This document shows positions 26,261 through 28,915 of a DNA stretch of 64,000 bases, piece after piece. The translations under genes were made by a program, and so were the position numbers. Each line of letters starts with the position of its first letter. The first letter of the stretch is position 1. The stretch is from Chryseobacterium lacus. GTDB lineage: Bacteria > Bacteroidota > Bacteroidia > Flavobacteriales > Weeksellaceae. The stretch is from assembly GCF_003336205.1 (NCBI RefSeq), contig NZ_QPIE01000005.1:186001-250000 (forward strand), written 5' to 3'. A model generated the notes under the pieces. It was not told the DNA's origin and searched no databases. It was given only the letters and a program-made list of their open reading frames with translations.

Positions 26261-26830
26261 ATGAAGAAAATTGTTGTTTTGATTAGTGGTTCGGGAACCA
26301 ATCTTCAGCGGATTATCGACTGTATCCAAAGCGGTGAAATTACGGATGCCCAGATATCCCTCGTTGTTGCAGATCGCGAATGTTACGGGCTTCAGCGTGC
26401 GAAAGATGCAGGAATTCCAAACCGGATGATCAAGCGTGGATCTTCGTTTTCTGAAAATCTAGAAAAATTAATTCCCGAAAATACAGATCTCATTGTTCTT
26501 GCGGGATTTTTGTCCATTTTAAGTGACCGGTTTTGTGAAAAATTTCAGGGAAAAATCATCAATATTCATCCGGCATTGCTGCCAAAATTTGGTGGTTTCG
26601 GTATGTGGGGAATGAATGTTCATCAGGCTGTTCTGGAAGCGGGAGAGAAGGAAAGTGGCGCCTCAGTTCATTATGTGACGTCTGGAATAGATGAAGGCGA
26701 AATTATTCTTCAGGGAAAAGTACATGTTGATGAAAATGATACCGCGGAAACTCTCGCTGCCAGAGTTCATCAGGTGGAATATGAGATTTTTCCGAAAGCG
26801 ATAATTAAAGTGTTGGGAATTCCCCTCTAA
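26261..26830 (+). CDS. purN: Phosphoribosylglycinamide formyltransferase (GART)
   Basis: A 189-residue enzyme that formylates GAR using 10-formyl-tetrahydrofolate, step three of purine synthesis. The N-terminus MKKIVVLISGSGTNLQRIID is the nucleotide-sugar binding loop. The catalytic Asn101 and His103 are in INIHPALLPKFGG and the catalytic Asp144 in SGIDEGEIIL. It starts 33 bp after purM. Unusually, the last three residues (Ile-Pro-Leu) and the stop codon (26819-26830) are encoded by the outer left repeat of the DUF559 cassette, so the natural C-terminus was replaced or trimmed by the insertion. The catalytic core is complete. Confidence 0.97.
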   Translation: MKKIVVLISGSGTNLQRIIDCIQSGEITDAQISLVVADRECYGLQRAKDAGIPNRMIKRGSSFSENLEKLIPENTDLIVLAGFLSILSDRFCEKFQGKIINIHPALLPKFGGFGMWGMNVHQAVLEAGEKESGASVHYVTSGIDEGEIILQGKVHVDENDTAETLAARVHQVEYEIFPKAIIKVLGIPL

Positions 26831-26866
26831 AAAGAGGGGTGTCCGCCTTAGCGGACGGGGTGTGTA
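26819..26866 (+). repeat. Left terminal repeat of the DUF559 cassette (two hairpins)
   Basis: Outer hairpin CCCCTCT (26822-26828) / AGAGGGG (26833-26839); inner hairpin GTCCGC (26841-26846) / GCGGAC (26851-26856); then GGGGTGTGTA. The first 12 bases also encode the purN terminus and stop. Confidence 0.85.
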
Positions 26867-26897
26867 CTCAGAAATAATATGGATAAACATCGACATA

Positions 26898-27323
26898 ATG
26901 AAAAAGCTACCATTAACTCATATCGATGGAATTGAAATATTTCGAAGAAAGATTGATGTATTACCCAAAAATAAAGATCTTTTGTCAAAAGCAAGAAGTC
27001 TGCGCAAAGGATATGTGTTGTCAGAAGTGATTTTTTGGAAACAAGTAAGAAACGGATCATTCCATCAAATAGATTTTGATAGGCAGCGAATTATTGGAAA
27101 TTATATAGTAGATTTTTACATAAAATCATTAGGTGTCATCATTGAAATAGATGGATCAAGCCACGATTTTAAGGAAAATTATGATGATGGAAGAGAACAA
27201 TATTTAGAATCTCTGAATTTAGTGGTTTATAAAATTTCAGATTACAGAGTTAAACATGATTTATTAAATGTGATGAAAGAACTTAAAGAGTTTATCATGA
27301 AGAATTTTTCATCATCAGTCTAA
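26898..27323 (+). CDS. DUF559 endonuclease-domain protein (Vsr-like PD-(D/E)XK fold)
   Basis: A 141-residue protein of the DUF559 family, related to very-short-patch repair (Vsr) endonucleases. Family landmarks are the helix LSEVIFWKQVRNG (Glu43), RQRIIGNYIVDFYIKSLGVIIEIDGSSHD (catalytic Asp72 and Glu83-x-Asp85) and the end strand VVYKISDYRV. It probably cuts or nicks DNA, but no target is known for the family. An in-frame ATG at 26862 lies inside the left repeat; I prefer the ATG at 26898 because the conserved N-terminus follows it. The stop codon TAA lies in the right repeat. It is much more AT-rich than the flanking pur genes. Confidence 0.88.
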   Translation: MKKLPLTHIDGIEIFRRKIDVLPKNKDLLSKARSLRKGYVLSEVIFWKQVRNGSFHQIDFDRQRIIGNYIVDFYIKSLGVIIEIDGSSHDFKENYDDGREQYLESLNLVVYKISDYRVKHDLLNVMKELKEFIMKNFSSSV

Positions 27324-27362
27324 CACCCCGCCTGCGGCACCCCTCTTTCAAAAGAGGGGAAT
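27321..27362 (-). repeat. Right terminal repeat of the DUF559 cassette (two hairpins)
   Basis: TAACACCCC (27321-27329), inner hairpin CCG-CCTG-CGG (27328-27337), outer hairpin CCCCTCTTT (27340-27348) / AAAGAGGGG (27351-27359), then AAT. It is the inverse of the left repeat, with different bases in the inner stem. Confidence 0.85.
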
Positions 27363-27397: not shown

Positions 27398-28915
27398 ATG
27401 TCGAAGAAAAGAGCATTGATCAGTGTTTCCGATAAAAACGGATTAACTGATTTCGCTAAGTTTTTAGAAAGAAACAATTACGAACTTATCTCTACGGGAG
27501 GAACTTTTAAACATCTGAAAGAAGCCGGACTGCATCCAATCCAGATTGACGAAGTAACCAACTTTCCGGAAATGCTGGACGGAAGAGTAAAAACGCTTCA
27601 TCCGAAAGTTCACGGAGGCCTTTTGGCAGTGCGTTCCAATGAAGAACACATGAAAACCGTTCAGGAGCATGAAATTGGTTTGATCGATATGGTGATCGTG
27701 AATCTGTACCCATTTTTTGAAAATGTTAATAAAGATATCTCGTTGGAAGAAAAAGTAGAGTTTATCGATATTGGCGGGCCTTCCATATTGCGTTCAGCAG
27801 CTAAAAACTTTGACAGCGTTACAGTAATTACCGACGTGGAAGATTACGAAAAAGTGCAAAAAGAAATGGCTGAAAATGGCGATACTGTTTTAGAAACCAG
27901 AAAAAAGCTGGCCGGAAAAGTGTTCAACCTTACTTCAGCTTACGATGCTGCGATTTCGAGAATGCTTTTAGACGAAGAATTCCCAACCTATCTGAATGCA
28001 TCCTATAAAAAAGTTGCTGATCTGAGATATGGGGAAAACCCTCATCAAAAGGCAGCGTATTACGTTTCGACTTTTGAAAACGGAGCGATGAAGGATTTTG
28101 AACAGTTGGGCGGTAAAGAATTGTCTTTCAATAATCTCCGAGATATGGATTTATGTTGGAAAGTTGTTCAGGAATTTAAAAGTGAAATGGCTTGTTGCGC
28201 TGTGAAGCATTCGACACCTTGTGGCGTTGCCATCGGAACAACAGCTTTGGAAACTTACAAAAAGACTTTTGAATGCGATCCGGTTTCCATTTTTGGCGGA
28301 ATCGTCGCCATGAATTATAAAGTGGATGCGGGAACAGCAGAAGAATTGAACAAATCATTTCTGGAGATCGTTATGGCGCCGGATTTCGACGAGGACTCAT
28401 TAGAAATTCTGAACCAAAAGAAAAATTTAAGAGTTATTAAAATCAAAAATTCCGTTTCAGACCAACATACCTGGGTAAAAACGGATGGTGGAATGCTGGT
28501 TCAGGACAATGATTCACAATTTTCAGAAGATATAAAAGTGGTAACGGAAATAAAACCTACTACTGAACAGGAAAAAGCACTACTTTTTGCGCAGAGAGTA
28601 GTAAAATATGTAAAATCCAATGCCATCGTGGTTTCCAACGGAATTCAGGCTTTGGGAATCGGTGGCGGTCAGGTCAACAGGATTTGGGCTACACAACAGG
28701 CGATAGAGCGAGCAAAGCAGAAATTCAGCGGTGATCTGGTTTTGGCTTCCGATGCGTTTTTCCCTTTCCGGGATGTCGTAGATTTCTGCGCACAGCAAGG
28801 AATTAAAGCCATCATACAACCAGGCGGCAGCATGAAAGATCAGGATTCGGTGGATGCAGCCAATGAACATCAGATTCCGATGCTGATGACCGGAATGCGC
28901 CATTTTCTGCATTGA
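27398..28915 (+). CDS. purH: Bifunctional AICAR formyltransferase / IMP cyclohydrolase
   Basis: A 505-residue enzyme for the last two steps of IMP synthesis. The N-terminal MGS-like cyclohydrolase domain (about 1-195) begins [37 protein letters not shown] and holds the TLHPKVHGG motif. The C-terminal formyltransferase domain starts near 198 with [14 protein letters not shown] and includes the catalytic Lys-His pair in [13 protein letters not shown] and the loop [12 protein letters not shown]. Length and motifs are normal. It follows the DUF559 cassette by 35 bp, so it depends either on read-through from purM or on a promoter at the cassette edge. Confidence 0.97.

Follow-up and report, generated by a model that had tools for sequence, protein, structure and literature searches.

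A 544-bp unit between purN and purH of Chryseobacterium lacus is probably a minimal mobile element that uses a Vsr-like DUF559 nuclease instead of a transposase; judging from sequence comparison, we place the probability of this reading at roughly 0.6. It would then be one member of a wider superfamily. Comparison of related genomes demonstrates that the gene and its ends occur together and at many sites, with hairpin pairing kept, and that there are gene-less copies, scars and some spread. In the mechanism proposed, the nuclease would bind the ends once these are folded, and would cut near the outer hairpins. The break could then be repaired by joining the outer arms, leaving a one-hairpin scar (the route of loss), or the cassette could be copied into another break in the fashion of a homing endonuclease (the route of spread). 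Such a model would need no transposase.

The unit lies in the window, the whole 64,000-nucleotide stretch of DNA analysed here, and has the following features, numbered from the first letter of the window:

26261 to 26830, plus strand: purN, whose last codons and stop come from the element (open reading frame; comparison with relatives)
26819 to 27362, plus strand: the whole unit with its ATT...AAT boundaries (direct reading; ATT/AAT outer boundaries are also present at the majority of 21 loci)
26822 to 26839, plus strand: left outer hairpin, CCCCTCT-AAAA-AGAGGGG, which holds the purN stop codon (reading and DNA folding)
26841 to 26856, plus strand: left second hairpin, GTCCGC-CTTA-GCGGAC (reading and DNA folding)
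26857 to 26863, plus strand: left GGGGTGT motif, facing the gene (reading; GGGGTG is recurrent in the family)
26898 to 27323, plus strand: DUF559 Vsr-like nuclease gene, 141 aa from the ATG, with Asp72, Glu83 and Asp85 (Pfam, alignment, structure model)
27323 to 27329, minus strand: right GGGGTGT motif, facing the gene and overlapping the final base of its stop codon (reading)
27330 to 27338, minus strand: right second hairpin, GCC-GCA-GGC (reading and DNA folding)
27340 to 27359, minus strand: right outer hairpin, CCCCTCTTTTGAAAGAGGGG (reading and DNA folding)
27398 to 28915, plus strand: purH, the right-hand neighbour (open reading frame)

Read directly, the unit starts with ATTCCCC and ends with GGGGAAT. 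The left end runs ATT, outer hairpin, T, second hairpin, GGGGTGT, and the right end, on the minus strand, runs ATT, the hairpin CCCCTCTTTTGAAAGAGGGG, T, the second hairpin GCC-GCA-GGC, GGGGTGT. DNA folding of the two ends, each against 200 shuffles, gave z-scores of -5.35 and -3.48, with 0 of 200 as good at either end, and together with the direct reading this bears out the mirrored, paired-hairpin ends that had been proposed from the sequence alone. As the purN stop codon lies inside the left outer hairpin, PurN owes its end to the element: in unit-free relatives where PurN was found the match ends at residues 181–187, versus 189 with the unit. The expression CCCCTCTN{3,8}AGAGGGG occurs at only two places in the 2.4-Mb genome, the two ends of the unit, and the genome has two DUF559 genes, both between inverted twin-hairpin ends. 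The nuclease gene is the sole gene of the unit, with no transposase gene beside it, and 60 of 62 loci of its class have the same layout, as expected of the self-contained cassette that the sequence-only reading had described.

The protein is a member of Pfam DUF559 (PF04480; E 1.4e-23, 83.2 bits against a gathering threshold of 20.6). An alignment of 22 relatives has Asp72 and Glu83 in every row and Asp85 in nearly every one (numbering from the ATG at 26898). A structure model of the 141-aa protein (pLDDT 85.2, pTM 0.80) has its best solved-structure matches in NGO0050 (3hrl, Z 13.9) and the catalytic domain of I-Bth0305I (3r3p, Z 11.6), and also matches the Vsr structures 1cw0 (Z 9.3) and 1vsr (Z 8.8) at 14–15% identity. 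The structural match and the acidic residues place the modelled protein in the Vsr-like PD-(D/E)XK fold, with catalysis predicted, in agreement with the original assignment of a Vsr-like DUF559 nuclease with intact Asp72, Glu83 and Asp85. It is like the Vsr very-short-patch-repair endonuclease in fold, but unlike it in that low identity, in its mobile context and in a unit without a methylase gene. The median dN/dS is 0.097, from 178 usable pairs out of 666, every one below 0.5, with four of 41 sequences left out for stops; by this sequence measure the gene is under strong purifying selection. A role in a defence system was considered and rejected, the nuclease having no PADLOC match at E 0.1; the NCBIfam match is far below the cut-off. 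A phage origin was likewise rejected, with just two weak relatives in viral_contigs and, at E 1e-3, three phage records.

The ends go with this class of nuclease. They were sought with the pattern CCCCT..AGGGG[TC]G..GGGGTG, allowing up to 2 substitutions, within about 1.5 kb of each side of the gene. In the family, a plus-orientation end upstream and a minus-orientation end downstream are present at 60 of 62 DUF559 genes of the window class, and the remaining two have a downstream end only. These 62 loci comprise the genome's own two genes and 60 fetched down the family score list from 93.5 bits; G169 and G163 were skipped for internal stops, and the last four (G128, G012, G040, G004) are lower or other rows. 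Among 80 named relatives, which are the best of 293 and include some loci identical with those of the unnamed set, 71 have both ends, three upstream only, two downstream only (in both, the contig ends shortly beyond the opposite side) and four none, while the reversed pattern has three matches in total. The named loci span Chryseobacterium, Kaistella, Flavobacterium, Epilithonimonas, Polaribacter and others, to Bacteroidales and one Melioribacteraceae. The ends are therefore not random relative to DUF559 genes, an association on which the cassette idea depended.

The four loci without standard ends carry ATTCTCCTCC..GGAGGAGTG..GAGGTG on at least one side; the variant CTCCTCC/GGAGGAG/GAGGTG ends lie on both sides at L161, L172 and L184 and on the right at L164. 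CTCC/GGAG arms pair with GAGGTG in all 4 distinct sequences, and CCCC/GGGG arms with GGGGTG in 233 of 236, so that, at sequence level, the inner motif varies jointly with the two arms of the outer hairpin, in lineages that are non-independent. Six further distinct end sequences have unmatched outer arms with GGGGTG, which counts against a mobile element. For the second hairpin, the linker that separates AGGGGTG from GGGGTG was compared in 233 of 262 ends; its 126 distinct sequences have a mean inner stem of 6.06, versus 2.58 when the 3' halves are swapped between elements (sd 0.16, maximum 3.11 of 500); the earlier observation that its bases change and its pairing is kept is thereby borne out. 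In more distant lineages there are, by eye, related but different G/C hairpins. Two loci of the same phylum (L260 and L265, f37) have a related DUF559 gene with twin hairpins in opposite orientation by eye (GGGGGATGT outwards), and other genomes of their group have up to eight relatives of the gene.

The exact end pattern occurs in 186 of 296 family genomes (reversed control 0); such scattered copies support the REP-like character that had been proposed. Across the phylum it occurs in 48 of 296 genomes (reversed control six matches in four genomes), and gene relatives in 129 of 296; 34 genomes have both ends and gene (Fisher 5e-5, uncorrected for kinship). Fourteen of the 48 have ends but no gene relative at E 1e-3, a point against a mobile element of this kind.

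Both ends are present at 131 of 142 loci, which form 34 clusters of common flanks; the 142 include some duplicates under two names, and at least two of the 34 clusters are one locus. Two of the largest clusters, both mainly from Chryseobacterium, represent a single intergenic locus at which the cassette may point either way, and the members of a third cluster match part of it. As far as the sequences go, the element has inverted ends at unrelated sites, as a transposon with terminal inverted repeats has. Gene-less copies are represented by 37 inward end pairs of 98–196 bp, versus 166 of 440–720 bp (the loci overlap between the sets), and at L249 a 170-bp gene-less copy adjoins a full cassette and has ends and inner sequence in common with it.

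Cassettes of three families (L143, L179, L204) have similar flanks on both sides, reflecting a conserved neighbourhood or transfer. At L123 (G040:C32:107061-110366) a cassette lies in frame inside a DNA methylase-like open reading frame; this frame was rejected as a clean empty site, its relatives being too different there. In the C. lacus genome, twenty left-type ends (L337–L344, L002; contigs C4, C12, C21, C27, C28) have some 20–30 nt in common upstream (GTACAAAAGAGGTTGAAATA-like) and are surrounded by TTAATCGG-like simple repeats, a few of them close to the edge of a contig; these solitary copies were rejected as young insertions, since they are located in arrays and have longer common flanks.

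At purN–purH, 30 loci were read from 36 genomes of one genus: five are occupied, two have a decayed single hairpin (G154, G117), two have other inserts and 21 have no trace of the unit. Relatives without the unit at this junction, which the sequence-only reading had proposed to look for, thus exist, and it is not the case that all relatives carry the gene here with no repeats. Since most unoccupied purN–purH sites are without a hairpin, the scar is taken to mark a loss. In G020 (L210) the same gap holds a lone twin-hairpin end of another type. A tree built from 41 flanks does not unite the 12 rows of carriers and scars in one clade (p-AU 3.8e-10) and has nine changes. For ten carriers, the flank tree is rejected by the cassette data (p-AU 0.012) and the cassette tree by the flank data (1.7e-5). 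At synonymous sites the cassette has diverged less than purN plus purH in G125-G165 (0.36 versus 0.60, P 1e-4) and G125-G181 (0.38 versus 0.67, P 3e-6); for G165-G181 the same comparison gives P 0.02. By this comparison the cassette is younger than its flanks for two purN–purH pairs, and there has been some horizontal spread. Against mobility, 43 of 45 pairs fail the younger-cassette test, many of them saturated, and in some pairs the cassette is more diverged than the flanks (for example G012-G019, 0.81 versus 0.54).

The association of DUF559 with hairpin repeats extends to other classes. Thirty genes of another DUF559 class, with a higher Pfam score and 11 of 30 in open reading frames of more than 1000 aa, were intended as a negative control; the window-type end layout was found at 0 of 30, and any match at six (three loci being shorter), so the end type is, at sequence level, particular to the nuclease class. 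A motif-free score for inverted repeats, which compares the 330 nt to the left of the gene with the 330 nt to its right and takes controls 920–1250 nt away, exceeds every control value at 56 of 62 loci of the window class and 14 of 30 from the phylum. The same holds at 16 of 27 loci of the other DUF559 class and at eight of 14 plasmid loci (from other phyla, taken from 30 records with a match). As a clean negative control the other class therefore holds for the window's end sequences only, and was otherwise rejected, 16 of 27 having inverted repeats of their own; these are of TCCTCACCCCAACCCTCTCC-NNN-GGAGAGGG or CCCTTTAGGGTTGGGG types. On plasmids of other phyla, the DUF559 genes at L409–L413, L420 and L421 are accompanied by strong inverted hairpin repeats that differ in sequence, and DUF559 genes of Sphingobium, Sphingomonas, Novosphingobium and Pseudanabaena have, by eye, hairpin ends of other sequence; three of those in Sphingomonas lie between same-strand neighbours (pntA side, sufB–sufC, and GatB/YqeY–dnaG).

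In all three large open reading frames scanned from the other class, the DUF559 domain lies in frame within leucyl-tRNA synthetase, before the editing domain and 322–347 residues in. In these leuS genes (L019, L021 and L023, from family genomes) the in-frame domain adjoins translated hairpin repeats (LTPDPSPKERG-like). A fourth, from the phylum set (L246), has DUF559 in a type I restriction HsdR-like protein, and at L243, L244 and L247 it lies in open frames of 699–994 codons with ends nearby.

The strongest competitor, which we regard as possible but improbable, is a free-standing homing endonuclease gene with secondary hairpins: its product would cut alleles that lack the cassette at a single fixed position, and repair would then copy the gene in. 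It draws on the fold match with the I-Bth0305I catalytic domain, on the scattered position of purN–purH carriers and scars in the flank tree, on the mutual rejection of cassette and flank trees, on the two of 45 pairs in which the cassette is clearly the less diverged at synonymous sites, and on the similar position of the leucyl-tRNA synthetase insertions in three of three frames. To our knowledge homing genes lack terminal repeats, whereas here both ends are present at 60 of 62 and 71 of 80 loci, and we know of none with twin-hairpin terminal repeats, gene-less copies or hairpin scars; the many unrelated sites (34 flank clusters) and the numerous scattered ends per genome also argue against homing. 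The cassette resembles I-Bth0305I and the EDxHD (Vsr-like) homing endonucleases in the fold of the catalytic domain and in its patchy, site-constant purN–purH carriers. I-Bth0305I is reported to have several domains and to recognise a target of about 60 bp (PMC3943268); the cassette differs in its 141-aa protein, its hairpin terminal repeats and its gene-less copies.

A second possibility is a transposase acting in trans, of the Y1 (REP-type, RAYT) or another family, that mobilises both the ends and the cassette, with DUF559 a passenger or regulator. The layout is indeed like that of REP/RAYT (TnpA-REP) elements, REPtrons and REPINs, which are reported to combine one small enzyme gene in inverted hairpin repeats with scattered copies (PMC3733652, PMC6006769); a Y1 gene is present in 226 of 296 family genomes, and Bacteroidetes Y1 genes of subclass 2.6 are reported to have atypical structures at their flanks (PMC6006769). 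The cassette's enzyme is, however, a Vsr-like DUF559 protein as opposed to an HUH Y1 transposase, and each end has two hairpins. In place of the Y1/HUH gene that lies between the repeats of a REPtron, DUF559 is the only gene, and 0 of 20 Y1 genes from end-rich Chryseobacterium genomes are flanked by ends, one end lying 1.25 kb off; the expectation of a REP-RAYT-like layout with another enzyme family has held up. The GTAG tag of REP-RAYT occurs anywhere in only 14 of 188 distinct end strings. Moreover, there is no Y1 match in G081, G128, G186, G198, G202, G256, G266, G284 and G293, each with DUF559 and at least 11 exact ends. On the sequence comparison, which among transposase families covers Y1, a Y1 helper is unlikely, and movement in trans as a whole seems distinctly remote.

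Two further groups of repeats are comparable. CGTC-tagged REPs, as described in a 2013 survey (PMC3733652), are orphan repeats with a CCA tail and no dedicated transposase, with Bacteroidetes among their phyla. Of 188 distinct end strings, scored for the tag, 118 end in GACGGGGTG, which is CGTC on the other strand, a lead only; the tag is not on all cassette ends, and no canonical CGTC-hairpin-CCA was found beside 14 DUF559 genes of other phyla. IS200/IS605 elements and MITEs are similarly compact, with hairpin ends and gene-less copies with common ends. Relative to IS200/IS605, the cassette differs in being without an HUH transposase and in having inverted-repeat ends and a scar.

The scar is best seen at the Chryseobacterium intergenic locus, whose joined flanks have a match in 128 of 128 genomes and where 34 loci, picked for short or odd spacing, were read (two without one flank). 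Cassette-free sites there have often retained a single outer hairpin, which is perfect in G602, G251 and G614 and near-perfect or decayed in others, and G200 has an internally deleted copy of the cassette. A flank tree of 55 rows, from which five of the 34 loci were left out (L311, L324, L325, L333, L334), has 31 occupied sites (22 forward, 9 reverse), nine scars, seven partial, six with none, one deleted and one decayed (scar labels by eye), with no fewer than 13 changes of state. Scarred and occupied sites are neighbours in G245/G265 (SH-aLRT 100), G275/G607 (99), G191 (partial)/G615 (98) and G224/L189 (95). The exact form ATTCCCCTCCN{2,6}GGAGGGGAAT occurs in eight of 128 Chryseobacterium genomes, one copy each (control 0), at the locus in G602, G614, G251 and G185, seemingly so from the flank text in G215 and G186, and seemingly elsewhere in G150 and G261. 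Counting against a mobile element, there is no scar at six of 24 unoccupied sites of this locus (by eye, in a non-random choice), nor at 21 of the 30 purN–purH loci.

The outer-hairpin loops agree as inverted repeats at 14 of 62 loci (permuted mean 4.4, maximum 12) and as direct repeats at 0 of 62; on this sequence evidence the outer hairpin is an inverted terminal repeat, and its interpretation as a target-site duplication was rejected. No target-site duplication was found, with no young unoccupied site among those compared. The main weakness of the mobile-element interpretation is that the outer hairpins can equally be read as a pair of direct repeats, near-identical to each other, such that host slippage alone could make the same scar.

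Descent at the Chryseobacterium locus appears mainly vertical from the sequences: cassette and flank distances correlate at 0.85 and the cassette is clearly younger in one of 465 pairs (lowest P 7e-5), which counts against mobility. Tree conflict gave no support for re-invasion of this locus (AU p 0.37, 0.52 and 0.27). An old, vertically kept module of repeat and gene, lost through host deletion between the outer hairpins and with a nuclease for repair or defence, would fit the correlation of distances, the scar as a recombination product of direct repeats and the strong purifying selection, but seems remote in view of the many sites, the gene-less copies, the lack of a PADLOC match and the patchy cassettes at purN–purH, in two pairs younger than their flanks.

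The reading that we favour is a mobile element built around the nuclease. On that reading the sequence-only interpretation is borne out in part; it had not anticipated the single-hairpin scar, the two orientations at one locus, purN–purH cassettes younger than their flanks, the joint change of outer hairpin and GGGGTG motif, or the inverted repeats that other DUF559 classes have, some of them within leuS. In its broadest form, the proposal is that DUF559/Vsr-like nucleases mobilise a bacteria-wide, hairpin-ended superfamily with class-specific ends, inserted between operon genes or in frame (leuS); the folded ends would be read, excision would leave one outer hairpin, spread would be homing-like, and gene-less repeats, perhaps including orphan CGTC REPs, would be moved in trans. 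The superfamily would then be an analogue of REP-RAYT grown from a DNA-repair nuclease. As one joint claim, we consider the chances of this evenly balanced. No description of a published DUF559 mobile element was found in open-access PMC text (titles and abstract starts; leuS and plasmid DUF559 lie outside this scope), in line with the initial statement that no element of this kind was known. The element would be undescribed in kind on condition that the nuclease is the mobiliser, and less so were it only a homing gene with odd ends. If the proposal is true, a nuclease family that Pfam lists as of unknown function would be the mobiliser of an entire class of elements, and an owner would be at hand for the CCCCTCC..GGAGGGG repeats of 186 of 296 family and 48 of 296 phylum genomes. 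Homing endonucleases would also be linked with REP-like repeats, and hairpin-ended mobility would be possible without an HUH enzyme.
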